DNA from: Umezawaea endophytica
Lineage (GTDB): Bacteria; Actinomycetota; Actinomycetes; Mycobacteriales; Pseudonocardiaceae
Assembly (NCBI RefSeq): GCF_025061645.1
Contig: NZ_JANYMP010000010.1
Span: 284,141 to 348,140, forward strand
Length of the DNA: 64,000 nucleotides
Reading direction: 5' to 3'
In this document: positions 5,656 to 22,791 of the stretch, one piece after another
Layout: every line of letters starts with the position of its first letter
How positions within the stretch are numbered: the stretch's first letter is position 1
Position numbers and translations under genes: made by a program
The notes under the pieces: generated by a model
Databases searched by the model: none
What the model was told of the DNA's origin: nothing
The model's input: the letters and a program-made list of their open reading frames with translations, nothing else

Positions 5656-6141
5656 GTGACACCGCCCCGCGCCGAACCACCCATCCACCGACTCGACCTC
5701 ACCGACGACGACACCCTGCGCGGCCTGTGGGAACTGCAACGTGCCGCCTACGCCGTGGAAGCCGACCTCATCGGGTTCGACGGCATCCCACCCCTGCACG
5801 AGACCCTCGACGACCTGCGCGCGTGCGGCGAGACGTTCCTCGGCACCGAAGACCTCACCGGCGCCGTCTCCTGGCTCCGCCCGGACGACGGCACGCTCGA
5901 CATCTGCCGCCTCGTCGTGCACCCCCGCGCACACCGCACCGGAGTCGCCCGCGCCCTGCTCGACGCGCTGGACCGACGAGAACCCGCCGAGACCACCACC
6001 GTCTCCACCGGCACCGCGAACCTGCCCGCCATGACCCTCTACCGCCGCCGCGGATTCGTCCCCACCGGCCTGCGCGACCTCGCCCCCGGCGTCACCCTCA
6101 CCCTGCTCACCCGGCGAACGCCCCGGACAGCCCCTCAGTAG
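5656..6141 (+). CDS. GNAT N-acetyltransferase
   Basis: A 161-residue GNAT protein. LDICRLVVHPRAHRTGVARALLDAL near residue 80 is the acetyl-CoA binding motif A, followed by VSTGTANLPAMTLYRRRGFVPTG, the usual motif B. The acceptor is unknown. The GTG at 5656 was chosen over a longer upstream frame because the -10 box TACGGT sits six bases before it. The last seven bases overlap the converging erythromycin-esterase-family gene. The left skewed arm described in the findings begins inside this gene. Confidence 0.85.
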   Translation: MTPPRAEPPIHRLDLTDDDTLRGLWELQRAAYAVEADLIGFDGIPPLHETLDDLRACGETFLGTEDLTGAVSWLRPDDGTLDICRLVVHPRAHRTGVARALLDALDRREPAETTTVSTGTANLPAMTLYRRRGFVPTGLRDLAPGVTLTLLTRRTPRTAPQ

Positions 6142-7331
6142 CCCGTGTCGTCGGCGACCGTCGACACCGGGACACTGACCACCGCGTCGAACGCGCCACG
6201 CGGCACCACCCGCTGATAACCGCCGTGCATCCGGAACTTCACCGGCCCCTCCGGCGACCCCCGCAGGTCCACCACCACCGGACCCAACCCCACGAACGCC
6301 TCCTCCAGACTGCCCGGCTCCGGCGCCGCCAACCGGGCGGGACAGACCCTGAACCCGAACGGCGCCGCGTCGTCCCACCGCGTGTCCGCCGTCTCACCAC
6401 CCACACTGGTGAACCCGACCGCGAAGTACTCCCCACCGAGCGCCGCCGCCAGGTGCTGACCCATCGGCACCACCGACGCAACACCGCCATGGCTCACCGG
6501 AACCCGCTGCACGTGCGCGTTGTGCGCCGCCACCACGACCCGCTCACCCCGATCCACGTGCCAGCGCACCGAATCCGCCAGGTACACCTCCCGAGCCGAC
6601 ATGTCTGCGGGCAACCCGCACCCCGAGTACAACTCCGCCACCGCGCGCACCGTGTGATCCACGCTCACCGCCCCCACCAACCGGTGCACCGCCACGTCGA
6701 ACGCCGCCCGCCCCACCCTCTGCACGTGCAACGGCTCCACCGCCCGGAACCGCACAAGCAACCGCCCCAACACCGCGCTCAACGCGTCCTGCTCCGCCAC
6801 CCCCAACCGAGCCCACGCCGGAGCAGCCAACGCCATCGACGCCGCCCCGAACCGCCCCGCGATCTCCCGCGCCACCTCCACCAGCGGCACCACCTCCGGA
6901 TCCGCCACCCGCACGTACTCCACCAACGGATCGAGCGCGGGCAACGCCGACCCACCCGCCGCGGGCACGTCGATCCCCGCGAACCGCACCCGCCCACCCG
7001 TCACCCGGTTGTGCTCACGCAACCACCACAACGACTCACCGACACCCCACGGGATCTCCGGCCTGCCGTCCCACGCGTCATCCGGCCCCGCCCCACCCAG
7101 CCACGCGTCGACCTCGAACCCCTCGCTGAACCCGAACTCCGTGGCGTACGCGGTGAACCCGCACTCCCGCACCAGGAACCGCACCAGGTCGTGCCGCACC
7201 TCGGCGAACTCGCGGATGAAGTGCGAGTTCTCACCCAACGCCACCACACGGGCCCCACCCACGGCCCTCCGCAACGGCTCCAGGTCGTCCAGAGCACCGG
7301 CATGATCACGAACCCAGTCGGCGAAACCCAT
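6135..7331 (-). CDS. Erythromycin esterase-family protein
   Basis: A 398-residue member of the erythromycin esterase superfamily (EreA/EreB-like). Visible motifs are VVALGENSHFIREFAEVRHDLVRFLV with the conserved G-E-x-x-H, YATEFGFSEG, WWLREHN, RFAGIDVP, and VVAAHNAHVQR with the second catalytic His. EreA/EreB hydrolyse macrolide lactones, but most actinomycete members have no proven substrate, so resistance should not be assumed. The ATG at 7331 has a GGGAGG nine bases upstream; an upstream frame to 7400 is not supported. In spite of its minus orientation the + strand is C-rich here, like its neighbours. Confidence 0.88.
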   Translation of the reverse strand: MGFADWVRDHAGALDDLEPLRRAVGGARVVALGENSHFIREFAEVRHDLVRFLVRECGFTAYATEFGFSEGFEVDAWLGGAGPDDAWDGRPEIPWGVGESLWWLREHNRVTGGRVRFAGIDVPAAGGSALPALDPLVEYVRVADPEVVPLVEVAREIAGRFGAASMALAAPAWARLGVAEQDALSAVLGRLLVRFRAVEPLHVQRVGRAAFDVAVHRLVGAVSVDHTVRAVAELYSGCGLPADMSAREVYLADSVRWHVDRGERVVVAAHNAHVQRVPVSHGGVASVVPMGQHLAAALGGEYFAVGFTSVGGETADTRWDDAAPFGFRVCPARLAAPEPGSLEEAFVGLGPVVVDLRGSPEGPVKFRMHGGYQRVVPRGAFDAVVSVPVSTVADDTGY

Positions 7332-7492
7332 CCGATCGCCTCCCGGCAACACCCGCGGCACCAGTGGTGACCACCCACCCTGCCGGGCCCCGCCGAACAC
7401 CGTCCAGCACCCGAACGCCGCACCCCGCCAGATGACCAGCCCACCCGCATGATCGCGGTATCCTGCTACGCCCCGACGCAGCTAGGAGGACC

Positions 7493-8548
7493 ATGGCCCG
7501 GCTCACCAGGGCGCAAACCCAGGAACTCACCCGCGCCAGGATCCTCACCGCCGCCAAGGCCGAATTCACCGAACACGGCTACCGCGACGCCAAGATCGAC
7601 CGCATCGCCGACCGCGCCGACCTCACCCGCGGCGCCGTCTACTCCAACTTCCCCGGCAAACGCGCCCTCTACTTCGCCGTCCTCGCCCACACCGCCGAAG
7701 CCGCACCCGAACCGCGCGCCACACCAGGCCACACCGTCCGCGACGCACTCGGCGCACTCGCCCGCGCCTGGGCCGCCACCCTGCCCATGGCCACCGACAC
7801 CACCCACGGCACCGCCCGACTCGGCGTGCACCTGCTGCCCGAGATCATGACCGACGACCTCACCCGACAGCCGTTCGCCCAACTCCTCGCCCTCGACGCC
7901 ATCGCCCTCGGCCTCGCACTCGAACAACTCGACCCCACCGCAGGACGACTCGTCCGAGTCGCCGAAGCCGCCCTCACCACCCTGCACGGCGCCACCACCC
8001 TCGCCGCCGCCGCACCCGGCTTCGGCGAGCCCTTCAACACCGTCCGCGCCTGCGAACAACTCGCCGACCTCGACCTGCACGACCAGTGGTTCGACCCCCA
8101 CCTGTCCACCACCGCGCACACCGTCGACGAACCCTGGGAACCACTACCCGCCACCGACCTGCTCACCGGCCGACCCGCCCCCCTCGACGACGTCGTCCTC
8201 ATCCTCGGCACCCACCGGCTCTCCGCCGTCGAAGCACCACTGCGCGCCGGAGCGGCCGTCACCGCCGCCATCGTCACCGCCCACCCCGACGAACTCTCCC
8301 CACTCATCCGACTCACCACCGCGCACCTGCGCGACCACCTGCGCCACGCACTCCCACACCCCACCTGGCCACGACTCCGACTCGTCAACGACGACCGCGG
8401 CTTCCTCGCCGCCGCCGCGGGCGTCACCCCCCACGACACCACCGAAACCGCACTCCGCATCACCTCAGGCCGCGTCACCGCCCGCGCCCACGGCTTCGGC
8501 GCCGCCCACGCCATCGCAGCACCCACCAGCGCGGACCACCCGACCTAG
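7493..8548 (+). CDS. TetR-family regulator with redoxin-like C-terminal extension
   Basis: A 351-residue protein, far longer than the usual 190-220 residues. Residues 10-60 are a standard TetR HTH (RARILTAAKAEFTEHGYRDA, then ADLTRGAVYSNFPGKRAL). Residues 70-195 look like the TetR ligand domain. Residues from about 210 read like a thioredoxin/peroxiredoxin fold: VVLILGTHRLSAVEAPLRAG, a strand VTAAIVTAHPDELSPL, PRLRLVNDDRGFLAAAAGV and ALRITSGRVTARAHGFGAAH. No catalytic Cys is present, so if the fold assignment is right it would be a sensor or scaffold, not an oxidoreductase. A strong AGGAGG precedes the ATG. The RraA gene follows nine bases after the stop. Confidence 0.85.
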   Translation: MARLTRAQTQELTRARILTAAKAEFTEHGYRDAKIDRIADRADLTRGAVYSNFPGKRALYFAVLAHTAEAAPEPRATPGHTVRDALGALARAWAATLPMATDTTHGTARLGVHLLPEIMTDDLTRQPFAQLLALDAIALGLALEQLDPTAGRLVRVAEAALTTLHGATTLAAAAPGFGEPFNTVRACEQLADLDLHDQWFDPHLSTTAHTVDEPWEPLPATDLLTGRPAPLDDVVLILGTHRLSAVEAPLRAGAAVTAAIVTAHPDELSPLIRLTTAHLRDHLRHALPHPTWPRLRLVNDDRGFLAAAAGVTPHDTTETALRITSGRVTARAHGFGAAHAIAAPTSADHPT

Positions 8549-8557
8549 AGTTCCCCC

Positions 8558-9220
8558 ATGCCTCTGCACACCCTGCTGACCCGCGCCCGCCTCCTCCCCG
8601 TCTCCGTCATCAGCGACGCCGACAAGAGCCTCCCCACCATGGACCACGGCATCCACCGCATCGCGGGCACCGGCACCATCGCGGGCCGCGCCGTCACCGC
8701 ACACTCCGACGGCGACCTGCTCTCCGTCCTGGAAGGCCTCGAACTCGCCCAACCAGGCGACGTCCTCGTCGTCGACGCCTCCACCAACCCCACCGTCGCC
8801 GTCGCAGGCGGACTCTTCGCCACCGAAGCACACCGCAAAGGCCTCTCCGCCATCATCGTCGACGGCCTCGTCCGCGACCTCGACACCCTGCGACCACTCG
8901 GCTTCACCGTCTACGCCCGCGGCACCTGCCCCCGCTCCGGCCCCGCCACCACCCCACCCCGCACCCAGGTCCCGATCCGCTGCGGCGGCGTCAACGTCCA
9001 CCCCGGCACCCTCGTCCTCGCCGACGACGACGGCGTCCTCGTCACCACCCCCGAACGCCTCACCGCCCTCATCGACACCGCCGAAGCCATCCACCTGCAC
9101 GAAGAAACCGCCCTCGCCAAACTCACCGACGGCGGCAGCCTCTTCTCCTCCATGAACTTCCGCACCCACCGCGAGAACGTCCTCAACGGCACACCCAGCA
9201 AACTCGGCTTCATCGCCTGA
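8558..9220 (+). CDS. RraA-family protein (HMG/CHA aldolase-like)
   Basis: A 220-residue protein of the RraA / 4-hydroxy-4-methyl-2-oxoglutarate aldolase family. The conserved core is present: ISDADKSLPTMDHGIHRI at the N-terminus, GRAVTAHSDGD, LAQPGDVLVVDASTNPTVAVAGGLFATEA and the metal/substrate motif VDGLVRDLDTLRPLGFTVYARG near residue 95, ending in GVLVTTPERL. Family members are either metal-dependent aldolases or inhibitors of RNase E; the aldolase role is more likely in actinomycetes. It follows the TetR gene by nine bases, so co-transcription is likely, and a TAGAGT just before the ATG could give a second promoter. Confidence 0.85.
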   Translation: MPLHTLLTRARLLPVSVISDADKSLPTMDHGIHRIAGTGTIAGRAVTAHSDGDLLSVLEGLELAQPGDVLVVDASTNPTVAVAGGLFATEAHRKGLSAIIVDGLVRDLDTLRPLGFTVYARGTCPRSGPATTPPRTQVPIRCGGVNVHPGTLVLADDDGVLVTTPERLTALIDTAEAIHLHEETALAKLTDGGSLFSSMNFRTHRENVLNGTPSKLGFIA

Positions 9221-9223
9221 CCA

Positions 9224-9976
9224 TCACCGACACGCGAACGGCGTCGTCACCGCCAACTCCACGAACCCCAACCGCCGCAAGATCGGCAAACTGTCCGACG
9301 TCGCGTCCACCTGGAGGTAGCGGAACCCCCGCGCCGCCGCCTGCGCCGCCCGGAACGCCACCAACGCCCGGAACACCCCCCGACCACGCCACCCCGGCAC
9401 CGTCCCACCACCCCACAACCCCGCGAACTCCGACCCCGCGTGGAACTCCACCCGCGCCGCCGACACCGGCACACCCCCCGCCATCGCCACCACGGCCGCC
9501 ACCGCGCTCGGCTCCCGCCCCAACCCCGCCAACACCAGCTCACCCACCGCCGAGTGATCACCACCGAACACCTCGTCGTGCACGGCCACCAACGCCTCCA
9601 CCCCCGCCCGGTCCACCACCGGCACCAACTCCACCCCCTCCGGCGCGACCACCTCCAACCGCAACGCCGCGACCTCCGCCACCAACAACGTCTCCGACGG
9701 CTCCGCCACCAACCCCGCCGCGACCAACCTCGCGGGCAGATCAGCGGGGGAGTCGTAGGAGTAGTGCTTCCACTCCCACGGCACACCCGCGAACCGAGCC
9801 ACCTGCGCCGCGATCACCGCGTCAGCACACGACTCGTCCAACGCCGACCACTCCACACCCGTCCACCCCGCACCGATCGTGCGCACCACAGTGGACTCCC
9901 GCTCCACCACGCCCTCGGTCACCGGATGCCTGCGAACCTGGTGGTCGAACGCGGCCAACACCGCCTGCTTGTCCAT
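9224..9976 (-). CDS. GNAT N-acetyltransferase
   Basis: A 250-residue GNAT protein. The N-terminal half is helical (KQAVLAAFDHQVRRHP) and the C-terminal 100 residues form the acetyltransferase fold: SAARVEFHAGSEFAGLWGGG, then TVPGWRGRGVFRALVAFRAA (motif A) and LQVDATSDSLPILRRLGFVEL (motif B). The substrate is unknown. The ATG at 9976 begins MDKQAVLAAF; a longer frame to 10027 has no support. It converges on the RraA gene with a three-base gap. Confidence 0.83.
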   Translation of the reverse strand: MDKQAVLAAFDHQVRRHPVTEGVVERESTVVRTIGAGWTGVEWSALDESCADAVIAAQVARFAGVPWEWKHYSYDSPADLPARLVAAGLVAEPSETLLVAEVAALRLEVVAPEGVELVPVVDRAGVEALVAVHDEVFGGDHSAVGELVLAGLGREPSAVAAVVAMAGGVPVSAARVEFHAGSEFAGLWGGGTVPGWRGRGVFRALVAFRAAQAAARGFRYLQVDATSDSLPILRRLGFVELAVTTPFACR

Positions 9977-10034
9977 CACCACAGCCGACCAGAACCCCAC
10001 CACCAGCACAAACGACTTTCCCCGCACCCCGGCT

Positions 10035-10063
10035 TTGACACCACGACCCCCAGTCGATCTAAT
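10035..10063 (+). promoter_or_regulatory. Near-consensus vegetative promoter
   Basis: TTGACA at 10035-10040, a 17-base spacer, and TCTAAT at 10058-10063. The expected transcription start is about 10070, at or just before the GTG at 10073. This is the best sigma-70-type promoter I saw in the window. Confidence 0.6.
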
Positions 10064-10072
10064 GGTGCCGCG

Positions 10073-10195
10073 GTGCGCGTGATCCCGACCGAAGAGCAGT
10101 GGCCGGGTCGGAGATCGGGCGACACCCCTTCACCCACGGGACCACGCCATGAGCCTCCCGCGCACGACGTAACCGCCTTCCGCGCCACCGAGTGA
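10073..10195 (+). CDS. Small leaderless ORF, 40 residues, hypothetical
   Basis: A GTG-initiated frame of 40 residues (VRVIPTEEQWPGRRSGD at the start, DVTAFRATE at the end) that begins where the strong promoter at 10035-10063 should start transcription. I recognise no family. Codon third positions do not follow the C-rich pattern of the neighbours, so the transcript could also be a 5' leader for the Ddn-hemerythrin gene with the ORF as a leader peptide. The call rests on promoter geometry only. Confidence 0.3.
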   Translation: MRVIPTEEQWPGRRSGDTPSPTGPRHEPPAHDVTAFRATE

Positions 10196-10250
10196 CCACA
10201 CCTCGACGCGCGCGCCCGGTTCCGTCCACCACCGCACCAGGAGCACACCC

Positions 10251-11066
10251 ATGTCCTTCACCACGGCCATCATCGACGAATTCCGCGCCAACAACGGCCG
10301 CGTCACCCACTTCCCCGACGGCGACCTACTCCTGCTCACCACCACCGGCACCAAGACCGGCACCGACCACACCGTCCCGCTCGGCTACGTCCACCACGGC
10401 GACCACCTGCTCGTCATCGCCTCGAACGCGGGCTCAGACCACCACCCCGACTGGTACCACAACGTCCTCGCCAACCCCGCCGTCCGCGTCGAACTCGGCA
10501 CCGACACCTTCACCGCCATCGCCACACCCGCCCAAGGCGCGCACCGCGACGACCTGTTCGACCACGTCACCCGAACCGCACCCGGCTACGCCGACCACCA
10601 ACGCCGCACCACCCGAACGCTGCCCGTCCTCGTCCTCACCCGCACCGCCGCCGTCACCACGTTCGCCGACAAACTCGTCGAGGTCCACACCTGGCTGCGT
10701 GAACAGATCCGCGAGATCCAAGCCGAAGCAGGCGCACCCGCCGGGCTCAAACCCCAGCTACGGCAACACTGCCTCACCTTCTGCGAAGCCCTCACCTTCC
10801 ACCACACCTCCGAGGACGACCACGTCTTCCCCGGCATCGCCACCCACCACACCCACCTCGCCGACACCCTCGACCAGCTCCGCGAAGAGCACAAAACCGT
10901 CGCACGCATCAAGAACGACCTGCTCGCACTCCTCGCCGACCGGAACACCACCGGCTTCCGCACCGAACTCGACCGACTCGCGGGGGAGCTGAACACCCAC
11001 CTCGACCGCGAAGAACACTGGCTCCTCCCGGTCCTCGCCGACATCCCCTGGCCACCAGCAGGCTGA
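10251..11066 (+). CDS. Ddn-like F420/quinone nitroreductase fused to hemerythrin
   Basis: A 271-residue two-domain protein. Residues 1-130 match the deazaflavin-dependent nitroreductase (Ddn/FDOR-B) family: LLLLTTTGTKTG, then VPLGYVHHGDHLLVIASNAG and HPDWYHNVLANPAVRVELG. Residues 145-265 are a hemerythrin HHE domain with the di-iron ligands visible in FHHTSEDDHVFP, LREEHKTVA and HLDREEHWLLP. The first domain would use F420H2, the second bind O2, NO or iron. The ATG has AGGAG at the right distance. Genes of this fused type occur in other actinomycetes as I recall; the reaction is unproven. Confidence 0.85.
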   Translation: MSFTTAIIDEFRANNGRVTHFPDGDLLLLTTTGTKTGTDHTVPLGYVHHGDHLLVIASNAGSDHHPDWYHNVLANPAVRVELGTDTFTAIATPAQGAHRDDLFDHVTRTAPGYADHQRRTTRTLPVLVLTRTAAVTTFADKLVEVHTWLREQIREIQAEAGAPAGLKPQLRQHCLTFCEALTFHHTSEDDHVFPGIATHHTHLADTLDQLREEHKTVARIKNDLLALLADRNTTGFRTELDRLAGELNTHLDREEHWLLPVLADIPWPPAG

Positions 11067-11179
11067 CCACGATTCACCCCGACCACGAACATGGCCACAT
11101 CCTGGCAACGACGGCCAATACAAGGACAAAACCCCGCACCGCACATCACCCCCCACAGCCCCGTGCTTGCCTGAACGGC

Positions 11180-11614
11180 GTGAACACCCCGGCCAACATC
11201 GACGACCTCACCCACCGCACCGCACAAGCCCTCGTCCAAGCCATGCACACCGACCAGTGGCACCACGCCAGGGAATGGCTCACCGGCTTCCTCACCACCA
11301 ACAGCACCGACCCCACCCCGGTGCTCGCGGAAGCCGAACACAGCCGAGCCCTGCTCACCCAAGCCGACCACGACGACCTCGCGACCCTCCACAAAGCCGC
11401 CACCAAAGCCCTGGCCATCCGACTGCGCCAAGCCTCCACCAACCACCCGACAGCGGGGGAGGAGTTCCGCGACTACCTCGCCGAACACACCGAACCCACC
11501 CCACCCACCAACCCCCACGTCGTCCAGAACGCCTACGCCACCACCAAAGGCCAGATCTTCCAGACGACCGGACACCAGCACATCACCCTCAACCCCAAAC
11601 GAGAACACCGATGA
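11180..11614 (+). CDS. Hypothetical helical protein with Q-x-x-x-x-Q-H-I tail motif
   Basis: A 144-residue protein of no named family. The first 100 residues are predicted helical (LTHRTAQALVQAMHTDQWHH, then DHDDLATLHKAATKALAIRL). A proline-rich linker leads to NAYATTKGQIFQTTGHQHIT, which resembles the iyQAGxDQHI tail I recall in many actinomycete proteins next to STAND NTPases or other conflict genes. That likeness is from memory, not a search. The GTG at 11180 was chosen because it opens the conserved-looking helical part. Its stop overlaps the start of the next gene by four bases (ATGA), so the two are coupled. Confidence 0.7.
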   Translation: MNTPANIDDLTHRTAQALVQAMHTDQWHHAREWLTGFLTTNSTDPTPVLAEAEHSRALLTQADHDDLATLHKAATKALAIRLRQASTNHPTAGEEFRDYLAEHTEPTPPTNPHVVQNAYATTKGQIFQTTGHQHITLNPKREHR

Positions 11615-12354
11615 ACTGGCTCCGACGCACCACCACACCGGGCAAACCCACCACCAACCCCCACACCGGCGTCTCCACCTTCGACACCCTGCTCCCCAGC
11701 ACCCTGCCCGGACTGCACTTCCACACCCGACTCACCACGAGCTGGGCACTCGGCGAAGCCCCAGACCCACCACCCCCGGCACCACCACCCGACGTCCGCG
11801 CCAGATCCCACATCACCAGGATGGCCGCCACCGTCACCCGACAGCACTACGTCACCAACGGCCCCTCGGCCCGCGACGACATCCTGCTCACCCTGTCCCT
11901 GCCCACCGAACTACCAGGCACACCCACCGCCACCGCACGAGTCCGCGACGCCACCGTCACCGTCACCCCCGAAGACCTCGCCCAGGCCAAGGACCACCTC
12001 GCGGCACAACGACACGAACACCTCCGGTCCTACCGGACCCGACAACGAACCGAAGTGGTGAGAACCCTCCTCGCCGACACCGGCCTCGCCCACGCCTGGT
12101 GGCTCACCCGCAGCACGGGGGAGTCCACCGCACTGCCCATCGACGCGATCGACACCATCGTGCGGAAGATCCAGGGAACAGCCGTCCTCCCCGACGCCGA
12201 CCCCACCACGCACGACCCCGTCGCCCAGACCACCGCACTCCTGCTGAGCACGCTGTCGCCCACCGAACGACTCGCCCTCATCAGCCAACTACCCGGCCTG
12301 CTCGAACTCCTCGGCCACCACGACCACGCAGACCACCCCACACCCCACGGCTGA
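11611..12354 (+). CDS. Hypothetical protein, possibly SPFH/band 7-like
   Basis: A 247-residue protein translationally coupled to the gene before it. It begins with a basic stretch, then STFDTLLPSTLPGLHFHTRL, an alternating strand region VRDATVTVTPEDLAQAKDHL, a charged helix RHEHLRSYRTRQRTEVVRTL and LADTGLAHAWWL. The order, beta domain then long charged helix, recalls the SPFH-like actinomycete proteins whose partner carries the Q-A-G-x-D-Q-H-I motif, but I could not confirm this. There is no membrane segment or signal peptide. Third positions are C-rich like the rest of the left arm, so it has been resident long enough to acquire the local bias. Confidence 0.7.
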   Translation: MNWLRRTTTPGKPTTNPHTGVSTFDTLLPSTLPGLHFHTRLTTSWALGEAPDPPPPAPPPDVRARSHITRMAATVTRQHYVTNGPSARDDILLTLSLPTELPGTPTATARVRDATVTVTPEDLAQAKDHLAAQRHEHLRSYRTRQRTEVVRTLLADTGLAHAWWLTRSTGESTALPIDAIDTIVRKIQGTAVLPDADPTTHDPVAQTTALLLSTLSPTERLALISQLPGLLELLGHHDHADHPTPHG

Positions 12355-12402
12355 CCCGATTGGAGGACACGCCACCACAGCGCGCCCCCCAACCAGACCA
12401 CC

Positions 12403-13236: not shown

Positions 13237-13257
13237 GAAACTCTCCTCCACAGTGAG

Positions 13258-13275
13258 GTACCGACCGGTCGGTAC
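13258..13275. promoter_or_regulatory. 18-bp perfect palindromic operator
   Basis: GTACCGACCGGTCGGTAC is its own reverse complement and lies just upstream of the SCO6745-family gene. The form is typical of TetR-type operators. No TetR gene is adjacent; the nearest is at 7493. Confidence 0.65.
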
Positions 13276-13343
13276 GGTCTGGGGCCAACGTACCGCCAGG
13301 GGACGGGGCGTGCGAAGGGTGCGGGGAGGGTGCCGAACGCTTT

Positions 13344-13371
13344 ACTTAACATAATGTAGATTATCGGCGTT
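13344..13371 (-). other. dif: dif site (XerCD recombination site, replication terminus)
   Basis: Read on the minus strand, the 28 bases contain CCGATAATCTACATTATGT followed by TAAGT. The actinobacterial dif consensus I recall (Hendrickson and Lawrence) has CCGATAAT, two variable bases, ACATTATGT, then CAAGT. The match is 25 of 28, with mismatches at the first two bases and one in the XerD arm. XerC and XerD resolve chromosome dimers here and FtsK translocates toward it. It lies in an intergenic gap between the SCO6745-family gene and the recombinase gene, and the base skew of the window changes sign here. Confidence 0.88.
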
Positions 13372-13603: not shown

Positions 13604-13618
13604 ACGTCACAGTGACGT
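13604..13618. repeat. 15-bp perfect inverted repeat
   Basis: ACGTCAC, one base, GTGACGT. No gene nearby explains it; it could be a regulator site or a terminus-domain protein site. Confidence 0.45.
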
Positions 13619-15349: not shown

Positions 15350-15410
15350 TGGCTGGTGCGTGCGGGTGACTTGGGTTCGCACGGGCGTTCGGTGGGTGTT
15401 CCCTGGTGGT

Positions 15411-16193: not shown

Positions 16194-16248
16194 TCCGTGT
16201 GGGTGACGCTGGGGTGCGGATTCCGCATTTCGGGGGTAGCAAGTTGCC

Positions 16249-17082
16249 ATGAGGTCGATCTGGCGTGGTGCGATCTCCTTCGGCCTGGTCACGATCGGGG
16301 TTCGGCTGTTCTCGGCCACGGAGGAGCACAACTTTCGGTTCCACCAGATGCACCGCGAGGACGGTGGGCGCATCAAGTACCGGCGCGTCTGCTCGGTGTG
16401 CGGTGAGGAGGTGGCTTTCGCGGACATCGCGAAGGGCTACGAGTTGGACGACGGTCGTGTGGTGATGTTGGACGGCGAGGACTTCGAGTCGTTGCCGATC
16501 GAGACGGACCGGTCGATCCAGGTGTTGGAGTTCGTGCCGGTGGAGGAGATCGATCCGATCTACTTCCAGAAGTCGTACTACTTGGAGCCGGACAAGACGG
16601 CGGTTCGGCCTTATGTGTTGTTGCGGACGGCGTTGGAGGACGCGGAGCGGTTGGCGGTCGTGAAGATCACGATTCGTCAGCGGCAGACGTTGGCGACGTT
16701 GCGGGCGCGGGATGACGTGCTGGTGTTGCACACGATGTTGTGGCCGGATGAGATCCGGCGGCCGGAGTTCGACTTCCTGGGCGGTGACGTCGAGGTGCGT
16801 CCGCAGGAGTTGCGGATGGCGTCGTCGCTGGTGGAGAGCATGGCGGGGTCGTTCGAGGAGGAGGAGTTCACCGACGACTACCGGGACGCGATGGAGAAGC
16901 TGATCACGGCGAAGGCCGAGGGTGCGGTGCTGCCGGTCGCGGAGGAGTCGGAGGAGTCGGGTGAGGTGATCGACCTGATGACGGCGTTGGAGCGGAGTGT
17001 GGAGGCGGCGAGGTCGTCTCGGGTGGCGCCCGCGAAGCCGGGTAAGAAGAAGGCCGCGGAGAAGAAGGCCAGTTCCGCCTGA
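16249..17082 (+). CDS. ku: Ku homodimer DNA end-binding protein, copy 2 with lysine-rich tail
   Basis: A 277-residue Ku. MRSIWRGAISFGLVTIGVRL opens the beta-barrel, RRVCSVCGEEVAF follows, and the C-terminus ends AKPGKKKAAEKKASSA, the basic tail that in mycobacterial Ku aids DNA binding and threading. Compared with copy 1 it has a longer acidic segment before the tail. It lies 55 bp after copy 1. The LigD phosphoesterase start is 10 bp after its stop, so the genes form one transcript. Two Ku proteins may form homo- or heterodimers; sequence cannot decide. Confidence 0.94.
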   Translation: MRSIWRGAISFGLVTIGVRLFSATEEHNFRFHQMHREDGGRIKYRRVCSVCGEEVAFADIAKGYELDDGRVVMLDGEDFESLPIETDRSIQVLEFVPVEEIDPIYFQKSYYLEPDKTAVRPYVLLRTALEDAERLAVVKITIRQRQTLATLRARDDVLVLHTMLWPDEIRRPEFDFLGGDVEVRPQELRMASSLVESMAGSFEEEEFTDDYRDAMEKLITAKAEGAVLPVAEESEESGEVIDLMTALERSVEAARSSRVAPAKPGKKKAAEKKASSA

Positions 17083-17092
17083 GGGCGTGGTG

Positions 17093-18178
17093 ATGGCGGA
17101 TCTTTCGGAGTACCGGCGGAAGCGGGATCCGGGGCGCACTCCTGAGCCGGTGCCGGACGAGGGGGTACTCCCCCACGGTGCTGATGACACGTTCGTGATC
17201 CAGGAGCACCACGCGTCGTCGTTGCACTGGGACGTGCGGTTGGAGCGCGGTGGGGTGCTGGTGTCGTTCGCGGTGCCGAAGGGGTTGCCGCCGGAGCCGG
17301 GGGTGATCCGGTTGGCGGTGCGCACCGAGGATCACCCGTTGGAGTACGCGGGGTTCTCGGGGGTGATCCCGAGGGGTGAGTACGGCGGCGGGGAGATGTT
17401 CCTGTGGGACCGCGGTCGGTACGAGACGGTGAAGTGGTCGGACCGCGAGGTCGACGTGGTGTTGCACGGGGACCGGGTCGAGGGTGAGTTCGTGTTCTTC
17501 CGGCGGGACGGGTCGTCGGGCAAGGACTGGATGGTGCGGCGGCGGCACGTGGCGGCGCGGCCGGATTGGGTGTCGTTGCCGGTGGACCTGCGGCCGATGG
17601 TGGCGACGGTGGGGTCGTTGCCGCCGGTCGAGCAGGACGACGAGTGGTCGTACGAGTTCCGGTGGGACGGTCTGCGGGTGTTGGCGCGGGTCGAGGGTGG
17701 GCGGGTGGTGCTGTCGGACGGGGTGGGTGGGGATGTGACGGCGTTGTTCCCGGAGGTGCAGGGGTTGGGGGCGGGGTTGGGGATGACGCAGGTGGTACTG
17801 GACGGGGTGGTGGTGGCGTTCTCGGGTGGGCGGCCGAGTGCGGAGGGGTTGGGTCAGCGGTTGGGGGCGTCGTCGGCGGCGCGGGTGCGGCGGGTGGTGA
17901 GGTCGGTGCCGGTGAGTTTGCTGGTGTTCGACCTGTTGCACCTGGAGGGGCGGTCGACGGTGGGGTTGGGGCACGGGGATCGGCGGGTGTTGCTGGAGGA
18001 GTTGGGGTTGGCGGGGTCGTCGTGGCTGACTCCTCCGGCTTTTCGGGGTGGTGGTGCGGCGGTGGTGGCGGCGGGTGTGGAGCAGGGGTTGTCGGGGGTG
18101 GTGGCGAAGAGGTCGGATTCGGTGTACTCCCCCGGTGTTCGGTCTCCGCTGTGGGTGGAGGTGTTGTCGGGTGGGTGA
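17093..18178 (+). CDS. LigD-type 3'-phosphoesterase with degenerate ligase domain
   Basis: A 361-residue protein. Residues 5-155 are the LigD 3'-phosphoesterase domain, with FVIQEHHASSLHWDVRLE (H39/H40, H45, D47) and IPRGEYGGGEMFLWDRG. Residues 170-361 resemble the nucleotidyltransferase domain of an ATP-dependent ligase, but the adenylated lysine of motif I (KxDG) is Arg190 in YEFRWDGLRV, the motif IV acidic residue is lost near LSGVVAKR, and motif V ends WVEVL instead of WxKxK. No OB-fold follows. It should therefore trim 3' ends but not ligate. GAGG eight bases upstream supports the ATG. It overlaps the polymerase gene by eight bases. Confidence 0.85.
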   Translation: MADLSEYRRKRDPGRTPEPVPDEGVLPHGADDTFVIQEHHASSLHWDVRLERGGVLVSFAVPKGLPPEPGVIRLAVRTEDHPLEYAGFSGVIPRGEYGGGEMFLWDRGRYETVKWSDREVDVVLHGDRVEGEFVFFRRDGSSGKDWMVRRRHVAARPDWVSLPVDLRPMVATVGSLPPVEQDDEWSYEFRWDGLRVLARVEGGRVVLSDGVGGDVTALFPEVQGLGAGLGMTQVVLDGVVVAFSGGRPSAEGLGQRLGASSAARVRRVVRSVPVSLLVFDLLHLEGRSTVGLGHGDRRVLLEELGLAGSSWLTPPAFRGGGAAVVAAGVEQGLSGVVAKRSDSVYSPGVRSPLWVEVLSGG

Positions 18179-19082
18179 GTCGACGACGGTTCGGGTGGAG
18201 GGGCGGCTGTTGCGGCTGACGAACCTGGACAAGGTGTTGTACCCGGAGCAGGGGTTCACCAAGGCCGAGGTGATCGACTACTACTCGCGGGTGGCGCCGG
18301 TGTTGTTGCCGCGGTTGGTGGGGCGTCCGGTGACGTTGCGGCGGTATCCGGACGGGGTGGAGGGGCCGTCGTTCTTCGAGAAGAACGTGCCGGGGCACGC
18401 GCCGGAGTGGGTGCGGACGGTGCGGATCGAGACGCCGGGTAGCGCGAAGGGCAACGAGTTCGCGGATTTCGTGGTGGTGGAGGACCTGGCGACGTTGGTG
18501 TGGGTGGCGAACCTGGCGGCGTTGGAGTTGCACGTGCCGCAGTGGACGGTGGGTCCGCGTGGTGGGAGGCGCTCCCCTGATCTGCTGGTGTTCGACCTGG
18601 ATCCGGGGTTGCCGGCGACGGTGGTGGAGTGCTGTCGGGTGGCGGAGTTGTTGCGGGTGGAGTTGGAGCGGGACGGGTTGGTGGTGTTCGCGAAGACGAG
18701 CGGGTCGAAGGGGATGCAGTTGTGCGCGGCGGTGGAGGTGTCGTCGCCGGAGCGGACGGCGGTGTACGCGAAGGGGTTGGCGCAGCGGTTGGCGGCGGAG
18801 CACCCGGAGTTGGTGGTGTCGACGATGGCGAGGGCGGCGCGGCCGGGGAAGGTGTTGATCGACTGGTCGCAGAACAACCCGGCGAAGACGACGGTGGTGG
18901 CGTATTCGTTGCGGGCTCGGGTGGTGCCGTCGGTGTCGACGCCGGTGTCGTGGGACGAGGTGAAGGCGTGTGCGCGGCCGGAGGACCTGGTGTTCACGGC
19001 GGAGGACGTGTTGGGGCGGGTGACGCACGGGGGTGATCTGTTCGCGGAGCTGCTGGACGACCCGGTGCGGTTGCCGGGCTGA
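18171..19082 (+). CDS. LigD-type NHEJ primase-polymerase
   Basis: A 303-residue archaeo-eukaryotic primase-type polymerase, the stand-alone version of the LigD POL domain. LTNLDKVLYPEQGFTKAEVI is the family start, FFEKNVPGHAPEWV follows, metal-binding D142 and D144 lie in LLVFDLDPG, TSGSKGMQL is the nucleotide-binding motif and D231 in LIDWSQNN the third acidic residue. It would fill gaps and add ribonucleotides at DNA ends. The GTG at 18171 has GGAGG nine bases upstream and overlaps the previous gene by eight bases, so it is coupled. Leucine codons are mostly TTG, a sign of the local bias. Confidence 0.9.
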   Translation: MGESTTVRVEGRLLRLTNLDKVLYPEQGFTKAEVIDYYSRVAPVLLPRLVGRPVTLRRYPDGVEGPSFFEKNVPGHAPEWVRTVRIETPGSAKGNEFADFVVVEDLATLVWVANLAALELHVPQWTVGPRGGRRSPDLLVFDLDPGLPATVVECCRVAELLRVELERDGLVVFAKTSGSKGMQLCAAVEVSSPERTAVYAKGLAQRLAAEHPELVVSTMARAARPGKVLIDWSQNNPAKTTVVAYSLRARVVPSVSTPVSWDEVKACARPEDLVFTAEDVLGRVTHGGDLFAELLDDPVRLPG

Positions 19083-19124
19083 TCCGCGTTATTCTGGCCG
19101 ACTGCCTTCTGGAAGGAATTGGTC

Positions 19125-19682
19125 GTGTCGGAGAGCTCGGAGAGCATGGAGGAGCGGTTGGCTCGGGCTTATGTGGCCGAGCCGCCGAAGCTGAACTCGA
19201 CGGTGACGCTGGTGGAGTACGACCCGGCGTGGCCGGGGTTGTTCGCGCGGGAGGAGGCGCGGATCCGCGGGGTGTTGGGGCCGGTGGCGGTGGTGTTGGA
19301 GCACGTGGGGTCGACGTCGGTGCCGGGGTTGGCGGCGAAGCCGATCGTGGACGTGGTGCTGGGCGTGCCGGATTCGACGGACGAGGTGGCGTACGTGCCG
19401 TTGTTGGAGGCGGCGGGGTACGTGTTGCGGATTCGTGAGGCGGAGGACGAGCACCGGTTGTTCAAGGGGCCGGACACGGACATCAACCTGCACGTGTACT
19501 CGGTGTCGTGCGGGGAGATCGCGCGGATGGTGGGGTTCCGGGATCGGTTGCGGGCGGTGCCTGGGGAGCGGGAGTTGTACGAGCGGACGAAGCGGGGGTT
19601 GGCGGCGCGGACGTGGACTTACGTGCAGGAGTACGCGGACGCGAAGTCGGAGGTGGTGGAGGGGATCCTGGGTCGGGCGTGA
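19125..19682 (+). CDS. GrpB/UPF0157-family nucleotidyltransferase-like protein
   Basis: A 185-residue GrpB family protein. VTLVEYDPAWPGLFAREEAR near residue 30, then LEHVGSTSVPGLAAKPIVDVVLGV, with G-S-T-S-V-x-G-L and the two acidic residues typical of the polymerase-beta-like fold, and HRLFKGPDTDINLHVYS. The biological substrate is unknown. The GTG at 19125 has GGAAGGA nine bases upstream and TATTCT as a likely -10 about 32 bases upstream, so it may have its own promoter apart from the NHEJ genes. Confidence 0.88.
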   Translation: MSESSESMEERLARAYVAEPPKLNSTVTLVEYDPAWPGLFAREEARIRGVLGPVAVVLEHVGSTSVPGLAAKPIVDVVLGVPDSTDEVAYVPLLEAAGYVLRIREAEDEHRLFKGPDTDINLHVYSVSCGEIARMVGFRDRLRAVPGERELYERTKRGLAARTWTYVQEYADAKSEVVEGILGRA

Positions 19683-19691
19683 GGCTGCCGG

Positions 19692-20531
19692 TCAGCGCAG
19701 GAATTCGGCGATGGCCTGGACCAGGTGGTGGGGGTCGTCGAGCCACGGGAAGTGGCCGCCGCCGGGTTGGACGGTGAGGGTGGCGGTGGGGATGAGGTCG
19801 GCGAGTTCGGCGCACCGGTGGGGTGGGGCGATCGGGTCGTGGTCGGCGGCGTAGACGAGCACGGGGACGTCCAGGGCCATCAGGGCGCGGCGGGTGGTGC
19901 CGGGGGTGAACGCGCCGGGTGCCCAGTAGCCCTCCAGCGCGGGCAGGGAGCGCTGGGTCCGCTCGGCGTCGGCGTGGGCTTTCGTGGTGTCGTCCCAGCG
20001 GCCGTAGAACAGCGGGGCGGCGGTGAGGCGGTCGTGGTGGGTGGCGTGTCCGGCGTTGAGGCGGTCCAGTGCGGCCGCGGCGGCGGGGTACCAGGGTTGG
20101 TGGGCGTGGGAGGCGAGGTGGTGGGTCCAGTCGTCGGCCGTGGGGGTGAGGTCGACGGCGCGCAGGGCGGGGGTGAGCAGGACCAGTCGGTGGAGCCGGT
20201 CGGGGTGGTCGTAGGCGTGGGCCATGGCGATCCCGGCTCCGGCGGAGTGGCCGAGCAGGTCGACGCGGTCGAGGTCGAGGTGGCGGCGCAGGGCGTCGAC
20301 GTCGTGGGCGAGGCGGTCGCGTCGGTAGGTGGCGGGGTCGGTGGGGGTGTCGGAGTCGCCGGTCCCCCGGTTGTCGAGCAGGACGAGTTGGCGGTGGGCG
20401 GTGAGTCCGCCGAGGTCGCCGAGGTAGTCCGCGGAGCGGCCCGCGCCTCCTGGTAGGCACAGCAGCGGGTCGCCGGAGCCCGCGAGGTGGTAGGCGAGGC
20501 GGGTGCCGTCGTAGGAGGTGAATCGGGGCAT
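19692..20531 (-). CDS. Alpha/beta hydrolase (proline iminopeptidase-like)
   Basis: A 279-residue alpha/beta hydrolase. LLCLPGGAGRSADYLGDL is the oxyanion loop, VLLDNRGTGDSDTP follows, the nucleophile elbow is LLGHSAGAGIAMAHA (Ser near 98), and the His is in VQPGGGHFPWLDDP near the C-terminus. The form is close to proline iminopeptidases and other S33 peptidases. GAGG eight bases upstream supports the ATG at 20531. It is the second gene after the S9 peptidase (29-bp gap), so a peptide-degrading operon is likely. A decayed paralogue lies at 22348-22764. Confidence 0.87.
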   Translation of the reverse strand: MPRFTSYDGTRLAYHLAGSGDPLLCLPGGAGRSADYLGDLGGLTAHRQLVLLDNRGTGDSDTPTDPATYRRDRLAHDVDALRRHLDLDRVDLLGHSAGAGIAMAHAYDHPDRLHRLVLLTPALRAVDLTPTADDWTHHLASHAHQPWYPAAAAALDRLNAGHATHHDRLTAAPLFYGRWDDTTKAHADAERTQRSLPALEGYWAPGAFTPGTTRRALMALDVPVLVYAADHDPIAPPHRCAELADLIPTATLTVQPGGGHFPWLDDPHHLVQAIAEFLR

Positions 20532-20560
20532 CGGGTCATCCTCGCGCACCTGGGGTGCCC

Positions 20561-22354
20561 TTAGCGGCCCCTGTCGCGCAGCCACCGGTCGAACCAGGCG
20601 CGGGTGCGGTGCAGCAGGTCGAGTTGGTGGGCGCGGTCGCGCAGGGTGTGGGGTTCGGCGGGGTAGACGACGTGGTCGTGGTGGACGCCGTGGTGGTGCA
20701 GGGCGTGGCGGAGGCGTTCGGCCTGGGTGGCGGGGACGTTGGTGTCGTTTTCGCCGTGGGCGATGAGCACGGGGGTGTCGATGGTGCGGGCGTGGGTGAT
20801 GGGGCTGTTGCGGTGCGGGTCCTCCCCCGCGAGGGCGGCTTCGAAGGCGCCTTCCTCACCGGTGGCGGCGAGCAGTGGCCAGTCGCTGATGCCCGCGCCG
20901 ACGAGGGCGGCTTTGAACCGGTGGGTTCGGGTGACGGCCCAGGCGGCCATGAACCCACCGTGGCTCCAGCCGCCGATGCCGAGGCGGTCGGGGTCGGCGA
21001 CGCCGTCGGCGGTGAGCAGGTCGATGCCGGTGAGGATGTCGGTCCACTCGTCGCCGCCGACGGCGCCCGCGACGAGGGCGGCGAAGGCGTGGCCGTGGCC
21101 TCGTCCGCCGCGCGGGTTGGGGAGGAAGACGGCGTAGCCGTGGGTGGCGAGCCATTGGCCGCTGGGGTACCAGCCGAGGTGGAGTTGGTCGGCGTGGCGG
21201 TCGTAGGGGCCGCCGTGGACGAGGGTGACGAGTGGGAAGGGGCCGTCGGTTCGGGTGGTGCCGGGTGGGAGGAGGAGCAGGCCGTCGAGTGGGAGTCCGT
21301 CGGGGGCGGGGTAGGCGAGGCGTTCCTGGACGCCCCAGCGGATGTCGCGCAGTGGTGGGTTGGTGTCGGTGAGGCGGGTGAGTGGTCCGAGGACGGGGCC
21401 AGCGTGGACGTCCTTGGGTTCGTAGGCGGAGCTGGCGATGACGGCGACGACGTCGCCGCGGGTGCTGGTGGTGAGGGATCCGGCGTAGCCGTTGAGGCGG
21501 GTGACCTCGGCCAGTGGTGGTCCGAGGCGGTGGATGGCGGTGTCGAGGCCGTCGGCGACGAGGACGAGGGGTGGGCCGGTGTCGACCTGGACGAGTTCGA
21601 CCGGGCAGGCGGTGAGGTCGGTGGTCGGGGTGTGGTGGTCGGAGGTGTCGGTGGCCAGGTCGATGACGGTGGTGCCGCCGACGAGACCGGGTGGTGTGGT
21701 GGCCAGGTAGGCGAGGTGCCAGGTGGTGTCGGGGTGTCGCCACCAGACCGGTGAGGTCGCCGCGACGGCGGTGGTGCCGAGGTCGCGCGGGGTGCCGGTG
21801 GTGGGGTCGAGCAGGTGGAGTTCGGATTCGAGCAGGCCGGGGTCGGGGTCGCGGGTGGAGCGGGTGAGCACGGCCAGTGCGCCGCCGTCGGGGCGTCGGG
21901 CGAGGGCGGCGACGTGGCGGCCGGGGAACACGTCGGGGGTGTGGAGGTCGCCGGTGGTGGGGTTGAGCAGTCGCAGGCGTGAAGGGCCTGGGGTGGTGTC
22001 GTCGGGGGCGGTGAGGGCGAGTTGGTCGGTGGTGACGGGCAGGTGGTCGTCGATGCCGCCCGGCCACGCGGTGAGGGTCTGCGCGGGTCCGCCGGTGGGG
22101 TGGATTCGGCCGATCTGCCGGTCGTCGGTGAGGAAGTAGATCCACTGGCCGTCGGGTGACCAGCGGGGGGTGGTGCCGGTGGTGAGAGGGCGGGGTGGGG
22201 TGGTGCGGTCGACGGGGGTCAGCCACAGGGCGCGGTCGGGCCTGTCCCCCGCTTGTCCGACGGGGCCGAGGACGTAGGCGACCCATCGGCCGTCCGGGGA
22301 CAGGGCGGGTGTGGTCGGGACGAGGCTGTCGACGACGGCGGCGGCGGTCAGCAC
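20561..22354 (-). CDS. S9-family (prolyl oligopeptidase) serine peptidase
   Basis: A 597-residue peptidase with a seven-bladed beta-propeller (LSPDGRWVAYVLGP, then TPRWSPDGQWIYFLTDDRQI) followed by the catalytic alpha/beta hydrolase domain from about residue 350: LVTLVHGGPYDRHADQ, FLPNPRGGRGHGHAF, nucleophile in IGGWSHGGFMAAWAVT, Asp in IAHGENDTNVP and His in YPAEPHTLRDRAHQ. It cuts short peptides in the cytoplasm; there is no signal peptide. The GTG at 22354 has a GGTGGG before it; a GTG four codons upstream is possible. The start overlaps the 3' end of the decayed hydrolase gene by seven bases. Confidence 0.9.
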   Translation of the reverse strand: MLTAAAVVDSLVPTTPALSPDGRWVAYVLGPVGQAGDRPDRALWLTPVDRTTPPRPLTTGTTPRWSPDGQWIYFLTDDRQIGRIHPTGGPAQTLTAWPGGIDDHLPVTTDQLALTAPDDTTPGPSRLRLLNPTTGDLHTPDVFPGRHVAALARRPDGGALAVLTRSTRDPDPGLLESELHLLDPTTGTPRDLGTTAVAATSPVWWRHPDTTWHLAYLATTPPGLVGGTTVIDLATDTSDHHTPTTDLTACPVELVQVDTGPPLVLVADGLDTAIHRLGPPLAEVTRLNGYAGSLTTSTRGDVVAVIASSAYEPKDVHAGPVLGPLTRLTDTNPPLRDIRWGVQERLAYPAPDGLPLDGLLLLPPGTTRTDGPFPLVTLVHGGPYDRHADQLHLGWYPSGQWLATHGYAVFLPNPRGGRGHGHAFAALVAGAVGGDEWTDILTGIDLLTADGVADPDRLGIGGWSHGGFMAAWAVTRTHRFKAALVGAGISDWPLLAATGEEGAFEAALAGEDPHRNSPITHARTIDTPVLIAHGENDTNVPATQAERLRHALHHHGVHHDHVVYPAEPHTLRDRAHQLDLLHRTRAWFDRWLRDRGR

Positions 22355-22764: not shown

Positions 22765-22791
22765 GACCCGCATCCTCGCCCATCGGTCTCC

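Follow-up and report, generated by a model that had tools for sequence, protein, structure and literature searches.

Inverted GC-skew arms flanking dif in actinomycete chromosomes suggest long-lasting exposure of the outward-running strand

Two steep, divergent arms of GC skew flank dif in the 64,000-nucleotide stretch of Umezawaea endophytica DNA analysed here (the window), and at fourfold sites the G-rich strand runs outward from dif on both sides, opposite to the normal leading-strand rule. The pattern had been claimed from a sequence-only reading of this DNA, which proposed a comparison with related genera. In that comparison the inverted pattern recurred in 51 of 121 actinomycete dif loci (our own, 42 of 60 from the family and 8 of 60 from the wider class) above a fourfold contrast of 0.45, a threshold picked once the spread had been seen; an equally strong normal pattern (below -0.45) occurred in 0 of 121. 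We give a probability of roughly one half to the reading that the outward-running strand has been exposed over a long time in a process anchored at dif, most likely because a break or the fusion of forks there starts DNA synthesis that proceeds outward.

In 1-kb steps across the window, GC skew was -0.34 to -0.42 over 6-13 kb, where AT skew was +0.17 to +0.46, and +0.30 to +0.38 over 15-22 kb, where AT skew was -0.14 to -0.31. In the steep left arm (approximately 5800-13000) the G/T-rich strand is the minus strand, outward from dif, and the plus strand is C/A-rich; in the steep right arm (approximately 15000-22350) the G/T-rich, outward strand is the plus strand. Between them the same 1-kb steps delimit a near-neutral centre (13000-15000) that holds dif and a 1-kb intergenic region. 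The four hand counts of C and G on plus-strand lines behind the original claim were exact on recount, and the arms are real and stronger than claimed: fourfold codon sites in genes of both strands were ~77% C and ~12% G in the left arm and ~74% G and ~13% C in the right arm, with a C:G ratio of ~51:44 outside the arms. Genes were taken from our own GC-position calls, not from an annotation. Referred to the plus strand, left-arm fourfold sites had C.80, G.10, A.10 and T.00 in plus genes and C.74, G.13, A.11 and T.01 in minus genes; right-arm sites had G.80, C.09, T.11 and A.01 in plus genes and G.67, C.18, T.10 and A.05 in minus genes; the background at 23-61 kb had C.51, G.44-.45, A.02 and T.02 on both gene strands. 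As genes of both strands share the bias, it follows position and not gene direction, as had been proposed. This differs from ordinary coding-strand skew, since the sign was independent of gene direction in the window and in relatives. That leucine on the right is mostly TTG was correct for plus genes (113 of 178 leucine codons) and wrong for minus genes, in which CTC leads; TTG also dominated in left-arm minus genes (57 of 91) and CTC was most used in the remaining arm and strand combinations, the distribution that a strand bias predicts.

To gauge chance, a right-minus-left statistic with 7-kb arms was used. It reached 0.70 at dif, compared with -0.19 to +0.23 at 471 positions more than 25 kb from dif on the same contig and -0.11 to +0.08 on nine other contigs, from which ten 20-kb samples supplied 200 positions. 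On the right, a weaker tail extended to about +16 kb from dif (~29 kb in the window). Further out, shoulders of normal polarity were found from -48 to -22 kb (fourfold skew +0.25 to +0.40) and from +16 to +50 kb (-0.13 to -0.28), and the fourfold skew was back to +0.15 at +50 to +65 kb and 0.00 at -117 to -60 kb. Ordinary replication-strand skew with the terminus at dif was thus inverted within the arms and present further out, and a uniform skew along each replichore, named beforehand as evidence against a local effect, was not seen. No Rfam match at the gathering threshold was detected in window positions 1-30000.

The dif site (TTACTTAACATAATGTAGATTATCGGCG, 13342-13369, plus strand) lies close to the centre of the skew reversal, is the single match in the 11.0-Mb genome and has the form given for the actinobacterial dif in PMC3364876, seen in excerpt. 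The first gene to its left encodes a SCO6745-family HTH protein (12403-13251, minus strand; PF21863, E 3e-102; NF047719); this HTH_67 gene was rejected as a cause, as tblastn at 1e-8 gave no match in 60 family dif loci. To the right, a second dif-like site (TTTCATGCATAATCGCCATTATCCAGC, 13854-13880, plus strand) is linked to the gene of a Xer-like tyrosine recombinase (14282-15349, plus strand; PF00589) that adjoins dif and reaches neither the XerC nor the XerD cut-off of NCBIfam (TIGR02224, 149 bits versus a cut-off of 335). With a homology query starting at 14381, inside this gene, dif was upstream of the recombinase in 72 of 73 named loci of at least 20 kb, and in 55 of these 73 the first 13 bases of the second site recurred, with at most one mismatch, either in the 3 kb preceding the recombinase match or slightly inside it. 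Two Ku genes follow on the plus strand (15360-16193 and 16249-17082; both PF02735 and TIGR02772; fourfold skew +0.88 and +0.64), then the LigD phosphoesterase and ligase domains (16997-18178, plus strand) and the LigD primase-polymerase domain (18048-19082, plus strand). An NCBIfam scan of seven proteins gave nothing bearing on the cause of the skew, and the locus comparison together with the position tests led us to reject Ku/LigD and the dif-linked recombinase as causes.

For the comparison, an element of the TTACTTAACATAATGTAGATTATCGGCG form (at most one mismatch) was found, in one copy each, in 89 of 150 family genomes, of which 60 were compared. In the class sample 199 of 246 genomes had a match and 60 were compared; three of these were truncated where a contig stopped, and in a few that are richer in AT hardly any genes were called, or none. 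Neither of the other two genomes belonging to the genus of the window gave a dif match, and the comparison therefore starts with more distant relatives. The contrast ranged up to +1.44 in skewed and down to -0.27 in unskewed loci; arms were mostly 5-12 kb per side, and the gene strands agreed on the bias in our own locus and most relatives. The genes flanking dif differ among skewed genera. Arms occur without the recombinase in many genera, and Kribbella has the recombinase beside dif and no arms; this clade label is our own reading and takes in L224, deposited as Streptomyces sp. SID13031. Named loci with weak or no arms included some Amycolatopsis (L225, L226, L249) and a Kutzneria MAG (L244). 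Normal polarity returned beyond the arms in our genome and in genome G109, mostly with the same G-with-T signature. The right arm was the stronger in 36 of 51 loci (p 2e-4, counted by genome and uncorrected for ancestry). Compared by genus, gene orientation in the arms did not differ (p 0.25, or 0.89 within the family), and a shift that was significant in two of three distance bins by pooled gene counts was therefore dropped. The motif GNCCTG occurred just downstream of dif in 20 of 43 skewed versus 2 of 17 unskewed family loci and in 3 of 48 others; a link to the arms is suggestive and confounded by ancestry.

Single genes carry or lack the skew according to their position relative to dif. 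The third Ku gene of our genome, on another contig, had a fourfold skew of -0.14, in contrast to its two dif-adjacent counterparts. It is one of 20 Ku genes outside the 10-kb dif stretches, 18 of which fell within -0.27 to +0.23; the remaining two, ~23 and ~11 kb from dif, had +0.44 and +0.29, with a sign that fits arm tails. The recombinase gene beside dif had a median skew of +0.51 (range -0.05 to +0.91, 66 loci). In Actinoalloteichus caeruleus, which we read as genome G023, this gene has no dif within 10 kb and a skew of +0.12; strong arms (contrast 1.15) flank the dif of that genome, ~0.5 Mb off on the contig of the gene.

Furthermore, substitution pressure among relatives was mirrored, with C>T and G>T on the right and G>A and C>A on the left. 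In the Lentzea left arm, rates of G>A versus C>T were.29 versus.04 in plus genes and.29 versus.10 in minus genes, and those of C>A versus G>T.26 versus.00 and.24 versus.05. Right-arm plus genes had C>T.42 versus G>A.07 and G>T.28 versus C>A.06, where parsimony may inflate common-to-rare changes and on this side favours G>T over C>A and disfavours C>T over G>A. Saccharothrix agreed wherever changes were countable, and Amycolatopsis A showed mirrored rates in all four classes. In right-arm minus genes the asymmetry was clear only in Amycolatopsis A, weak in Lentzea and contrary in Amycolatopsis B (C>T 0, G>A 4). The same gene beside dif in armless Kribbella showed no G>T/C>A asymmetry (5 versus 10 changes), with C>T still ~2x G>A. 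Altogether, the strand running outward 5' to 3' took more C>T and G>T changes than its partner, both in the long term and among close living relatives, and irrespective of the genes present; in most bearers this holds for ~5-12 kb per side. The opposite-strand C-to-T change first proposed from codon usage is thereby seen as actual substitutions, with G>T as a further component.

The cause of the arms seems to be anchored at dif. Skew changepoints in 51 loci lay at most 1 kb from dif in 31 (median +722 bp), and only 6 of 51 changepoint intervals contained dif itself; changepoints are noisy because conserved genes interrupt the signal. Several complete arm-bearing genomes have unequal replichores (G183, 3.45/4.05 Mb; G098, 3.77/3.35 Mb; G079, 3.52/3.17 Mb), so that forks of equal speed, as assumed in computing the expected meeting point, would meet ~170-300 kb from dif, yet the switch lay at -217, -2375 and +791 bp from dif, respectively. 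Arm strength did not track which replichore was the shorter (rho 0.14, p 0.51, n=23; with two displaced-centre genomes added, rho 0.30, p 0.14, n=25), and replichore imbalance was rejected as a predictor of arm asymmetry for want of a significant relation. The switch near dif despite unequal replichores and the missing relation to replichore length both argue for anchoring. For the replication-associated cause suggested earlier, this means that a local cause at dif holds up, with outward synthesis as its best, conditional reading, and that a passive fork-collision point is not supported in the form proposed.

RecB was absent from 54 of 54 arm-bearing genomes, our own included (the 54 take in three f16 loci with displaced centres, L168-L170, added by hand), and 0 of 19 RecB-carrying genomes exceeded the arm threshold. 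Arms were present in 54 of 102 RecB-less genomes and missing in 48; absence of RecB is thus not sufficient. RecB is clumped by family, and its association with arms may therefore be due to ancestry; one genome with RecB (G241) had a weak left arm with a contrast of 0.35. All 28 arm-bearing genomes tested for RecG, and 21 of 22 without arms, had a match to it besides a shorter match in a protein of 1.2 thousand amino acids that we take to be Mfd-like; genome G256 had only this shorter match, and the RecG match exceeded the curated cut-off in 32 of 50 genomes. As RecG-like genes occur in all arm-bearing genomes tested, RecG loss was rejected as the cause of the arms.

On the reading that we prefer, DNA synthesis would start at or near dif and run outward both ways, repeatedly leaving the displaced or lagging-template strand single-stranded on each side. 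The trigger, most likely dif-anchored, would be breakage of the DNA that segregates last, at the septum/FtsK/XerCD complex of dividing cells, or alternatively fork fusion held at dif. Repair by strand invasion into the sister would then extend past dif in both directions, by D-loop, SDSA or BIR-like synthesis or by re-replication. In E. coli, RecBCD deals with such ends at the terminus, and its lack, consistent with the absence of RecB in arm bearers, would let the tracts persist. The loss of DNA that accompanies division in E. coli recB cells has its centre at the dif region and does not depend on the merging of forks (PMC5638614, in excerpt). The neutral centre would fit end resection or a scattered start point. 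Because plain resection at a break would bare the other strand, tracts of synthesis would have to outweigh resection. Symmetric initiation at dif predicts neither the arms on one side only in family f17 nor the displacement of the skew centre in three f16 genomes; on this reading the start point or direction can vary. It is a more doubtful extension that dif may act as a regular start of DNA synthesis in several actinobacterial lineages, with outward copying over 5-12 kb in a large share of cell cycles that meets incoming forks, the end point thus being also a DnaA-free, recombination-primed start.

Among the alternatives, divergent non-coding transcription from beside dif is the most serious, albeit unlikely. 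R-loops reaching 5-12 kb outward would expose the non-template, and hence the same, strand with the same C>T and G>T signature, and such transcription could be one-sided or end sharply, as do the arms of G109 at ~-6 and ~+11 kb. However, it must cross genes of both orientations and be conserved despite differing gene content, the skew in genes is independent of their own transcription direction, and the right boundary in the window, in 1-kb steps, apparently lies inside gene 20561-23146. Ranking next, and improbable, are inward forks with reversed asymmetry in the last kilobases, the leading template being exposed as forks slow or uncouple when converging on a barrier at dif. Outward synthesis would then not be needed and displaced centres could be displaced meeting points, but the forks must stop at dif despite unequal replichores, arm asymmetry is unrelated to replichore length, and no mechanism is known to us by which 5-12 kb of leading template would be laid bare.

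The -/+ pattern with normal-polarity flanks further out is origin-like. That dif adjoins a genuine second origin, of the oriC or plasmid type, is nevertheless very unlikely: in 43 skewed family loci the stretches from -1.5 to +2 kb of dif, 150.5 kb in all, held 0 DnaA boxes, although more distant sequence was poor in them too (2 in 709.5 kb), no initiator was found among the Pfam-scanned arm genes, and the flanking genes differ between genera. Selection for oriented motifs, FtsK-guiding or similar, has in its favour that motifs orienting FtsK in E. coli converge on dif (PMC5638614, in excerpt) and that GGGCAGGG occurred 57 times outward versus 14 inward in the arms. It is hardly credible as the source of the skew, since the bulk composition is biased, AT skew included, the mirroring extends to the C>T and G>T rates, and the arm polarity would steer FtsK away from dif; moreover, k-mer counts of 102 arms revealed no dominant 6-, 7- or 8-mer (best z 11.8, 9.0 and 6.7) and no motif whose removal abolishes the skew. 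Integration of a foreign element or island bringing its own skew can practically be dismissed in spite of the dif-linked recombinase and second dif-like site, as arms and recombinase occur without each other (many genera, Kribbella), bearers differ in gene content and share no element genes, and the position tests contradict it.

In the papers found, the end of chromosome copying and the fate of DNA at dif are studied mainly in E. coli mutants. The wild-type genomes described here carry a lasting trace of strand exposure at dif that can still be read, and provide natural controls (armless lineages, one-sided arms, genes beside and away from dif), and synthesis or breakage at a wild-type terminus becomes directly testable. 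The arms could also mislead tools that place oriC or ter by local GC skew. In line with the earlier statement that no description was known, none of such arms was found among the literature matches listed.

Known systems resemble the arms in part. Replication-strand GC skew with a reversal near dif (Hendrickson and Lawrence 2007, according to excerpts of PMC3317982) shares with the arms a G+T excess on one strand, a switch near dif and a strong signal at synonymous sites; in contrast to it, the arms are opposite in sign, several-fold steeper than the normal contrast of the unskewed loci compared here, and mostly limited to 5-12 kb per side, with normal polarity beyond. In E. coli without RecG or 3' exonucleases, the terminus is over-replicated, with new forks leaving the fork-fusion site and double-stranded ends and D-loops at the terminus (PMC12809603 and PMC10331603, both in excerpt). 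That is a mutant condition, whereas the arms occur in wild-type lineages with RecG-like genes and are anchored near dif; RecG is thus not missing in the arm bearers tested, and the mutational polarity would be consistent with outward synthesis. In the excerpts of PMC5638614, which mention no skew arms, the division-induced breaks of E. coli recB mutants are likewise anchored at the dif region; they are independent of fork merging and are seen where RecB is missing, as it is in the 54 arm bearers, in which breaks at dif are putative.

Recounting confirmed exactly all four hand base counts of the sequence-only reading. Calculated in 1-kb steps, GC skew in the window ranges from -0.34 to -0.42 per kb between 6 and 13 kb (left arm) and from +0.30 to +0.38 per kb between 15 and 22 kb (right arm), on either side of the dif site (13342-13369, a single match in this genome), and AT skew has the opposite sign to GC skew in either arm. 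As that reading had proposed, the skew is set by position and not by gene direction: in genes of both strands, fourfold codon sites hold 74-80% C and 10-13% G in the left arm and 67-80% G and 9-18% C in the right arm, against a background of about 51% C and 44% G at 23-61 kb. Individual genes reach fourfold skews of -0.86 and +0.92. At dif the skew statistic is 0.70, well beyond the values at 471 positions elsewhere on the same contig and at 200 positions (ten samples) on nine other contigs. Far from dif, the gene at 62007-63299 also shows a strong local GC skew (-0.37), probably due to its coding content; it encodes a 430-aa protein rich in Ala/Glu/Val coiled-coil-like repeats, with no Pfam match at 1e-3.

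Outside the inverted arms the contig carries shoulders of normal polarity, with fourfold skews of +0.25 to +0.40 at -48 to -22 kb from dif and -0.13 to -0.28 at +16 to +50 kb; further out the values are 0.00 (-117 to -60 kb) and +0.15 (+50 to +65 kb). A complete genome (G109) of the genus group g22, to which Saccharothrix probably belongs, has the same shape with sharper edges, its skew being positive up to about -8 kb, negative from -5 kb to dif, positive to +11 kb and negative from +12 to about +27 kb. Within 1 kb of dif, to the left and to the right, skew is weak, and the mean profile over 41 loci has its maximum at 2-4 kb.

For comparison with related genera, 150 genomes of the family were searched for the dif element (89 matched; dif +-10 kb taken from 60) and 246 of the class (199 matched; 60 loci taken), giving 121 loci with the window. 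Inverted arms recur: the contrast (fourfold GC skew right minus left of dif) exceeds 0.45, a threshold chosen after seeing the spread, in 51 of the 121, namely the window, 42/60 family loci (17/29 genera) and three further families, f3 (2/2), f17 (4/5) and f16 (2/8). Contrasts in the remaining class families lie between -0.19 and +0.35, and none of the 121 loci falls below -0.45 (minimum -0.27). Named arm-bearers include Saccharothrix, Lentzea, Actinosynnema, Kutzneria, most Amycolatopsis, Goodfellowiella, Solihabitans and Kibdelosporangium. Counted by locus and ignoring kinship, the right arm in window orientation is the stronger in 36/51. Three further f16 loci (L168, L169, L170) have a strongly G-rich plus strand on both sides of dif and switch 3-6 kb to its left, so that the process there is centred away from dif; in one such f16 genome (G351), the only one traced to +30 kb, the right arm extends about 30 kb or more. 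A strongly armed locus is deposited as Rhodococcus rhodnii, but its recombinase matches about as well as the Kibdelosporangium one does, and the organism label may be wrong. Saccharothrix luteola has two contigs with nearly identical dif/recombinase regions, either an assembly duplicate or a real terminus duplication.

Few genes beside dif are common to the skewed genera. Fourfold skew is +0.88 and +0.64 in the two right-arm Ku genes and -0.14 in the third Ku of this genome, on another contig. Of 20 Ku genes taken from beyond the 10-kb stretches around dif, 18 have values from -0.27 to +0.23; the remaining two (+0.44 and +0.29), at distances of about 23 and 11 kb, have the sign that an arm tail should show. 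In both Pseudonocardiaceae and Kribbella (named loci L173-L252), a third Xer-like tyrosine recombinase (in the window 14282-15349, below the XerC/XerD cut-offs) is encoded next to dif, with its orientation unchanged. Its gene has a median fourfold skew of +0.51 over 66 loci beside dif; in six loci of Kribbella, one of them deposited as Streptomyces, where the same recombinase adjoins dif and arms are absent, the value is -0.14 to -0.33. In Actinoalloteichus caeruleus (taken to be G023), dif has strong arms and no neighbouring recombinase gene; that gene lies about 0.5 Mb away, with no dif within 10 kb, and has a skew of +0.12, which provides a within-genome control. In Kutzneria viridogrisea dif and the gene are 4.9 kb apart and positive skew starts between them.

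Of the best 80 named loci 73 were sufficiently long, and dif lies at most 10 kb upstream of the recombinase in 72 of these; in 61 the distance is no more than 1.1 kb. Ahead of the gene, 55/73 loci carry a second dif-like site (window 13854-13880); the recombinase possibly serves a dedicated second resolution system. A partly conserved flank, GNCCTG ... GAGAGGGGC, lies +20 to +80 downstream of dif; its parts GNCCTG and GAGAGGGGC occur in 20/43 and 16/43 skewed versus 2/17 each of the unskewed family genomes.

When fourfold sites were analysed by parsimony, in gene families common to the members of a clade, the substitution rates of the two arms mirrored each other. In the Lentzea left arm, G>A exceeds C>T (.29 vs.04 in plus-strand,.29 vs.10 in minus-strand genes) and C>A exceeds G>T (.26 vs.00 and.24 vs.05); in right-arm plus-strand genes C>T exceeds G>A (.42 vs.07) and G>T exceeds C>A (.28 vs.06), with weak asymmetry in minus-strand genes. 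The pattern is upheld in all three classes of Saccharothrix and all four of Amycolatopsis A. Amycolatopsis B agrees in right plus-strand and left minus-strand genes, has C>T about equal to G>A in left plus-strand genes, and is contrary in right minus-strand genes (C>T 0, G>A 4, one family). In the recombinase gene of Kribbella, asymmetry of G>T against C>A is absent (5 vs 10 changes), though C>T is about twice as frequent as G>A. The proposal that C>T acts on opposite strands in the two arms is thus borne out, with a G>T component besides, implying that the outward-running strand takes both changes. From the chemistry of DNA lesions, both are expected on a strand that is often single.

By likelihood, the changepoint is placed no more than 1 kb from dif in 31/51 loci (median +722 bp), and its interval contains dif in 6/51. 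In complete genomes dif is roughly opposite dnaA, replichores are unequal by several hundred kb in several cases, and arm asymmetry does not follow this imbalance. A meeting point of forks that is free to shift is disfavoured by this, and either a barrier at dif or some process anchored there is favoured. Of the replication-linked cause first suggested, fork collision at the terminus, outward re-replication stays favoured and the free meeting point does not.

RecB (a match of about 475 bits or more) occurs in 19 of 121 genomes, none of which passes the arm threshold; of the 102 RecB-less genomes 54 bear arms, the three f16 loci with displaced centres counted among them (nominal Fisher p 4e-6). 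As RecB follows family lines and 48 genomes lack both it and arms, this is a lead and not proof. G241 combines RecB with a weak left arm (contrast 0.35). Ku presence (64/67) was rejected as a discriminator of arm-bearers, as was RecG loss as a cause, RecG-like genes being found in 28/28 arm-bearing and 21/22 other genomes tested. The right arm holds a non-homologous end-joining cluster (15360-19082), made up of two Ku genes and of separately called genes for the ligase and the primase-polymerase domains of LigD; such a cluster also lies beside dif in Lentzea, some genomes of g22 (the Saccharothrix group) and Goodfellowiella.

At a probability of about one half, our preferred reading is DNA synthesis that runs outward from an anchor at dif, either as repair or as re-replication. 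The exposed strand would be the one that outward synthesis displaces or copies as its lagging template, or the nascent strand of outward D-loop extension. There are two main rivals. Divergent transcription outward from dif would expose the same outward strand, as non-template strand, and we regard it as unlikely; ordinary inward forks with reversed asymmetry appear slightly less probable again. The exposed strand is not the one that 5' resection of a dif break would leave by itself.

The sequence-only reading knew of no such arms, and among the matches listed in openly licensed papers we found no report of inverted skew arms flanking dif. In published genome descriptions, G+C skew was reported as not noticeable in Saccharothrix espanaensis (PMC3469384), a cumulative skew inversion was reported at oriC and dif of Kutzneria albida (PMC4210621), and two replichores and a dif site in Actinoplanes (PMC3364876). 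E. coli recB cells are described as losing DNA around dif at division irrespective of where forks merge (PMC5638614), and fork fusions as able to give rise to new forks, with over-replication of the terminus (PMC10331603; PMC12809603); together these precedents favour outward synthesis anchored at dif.
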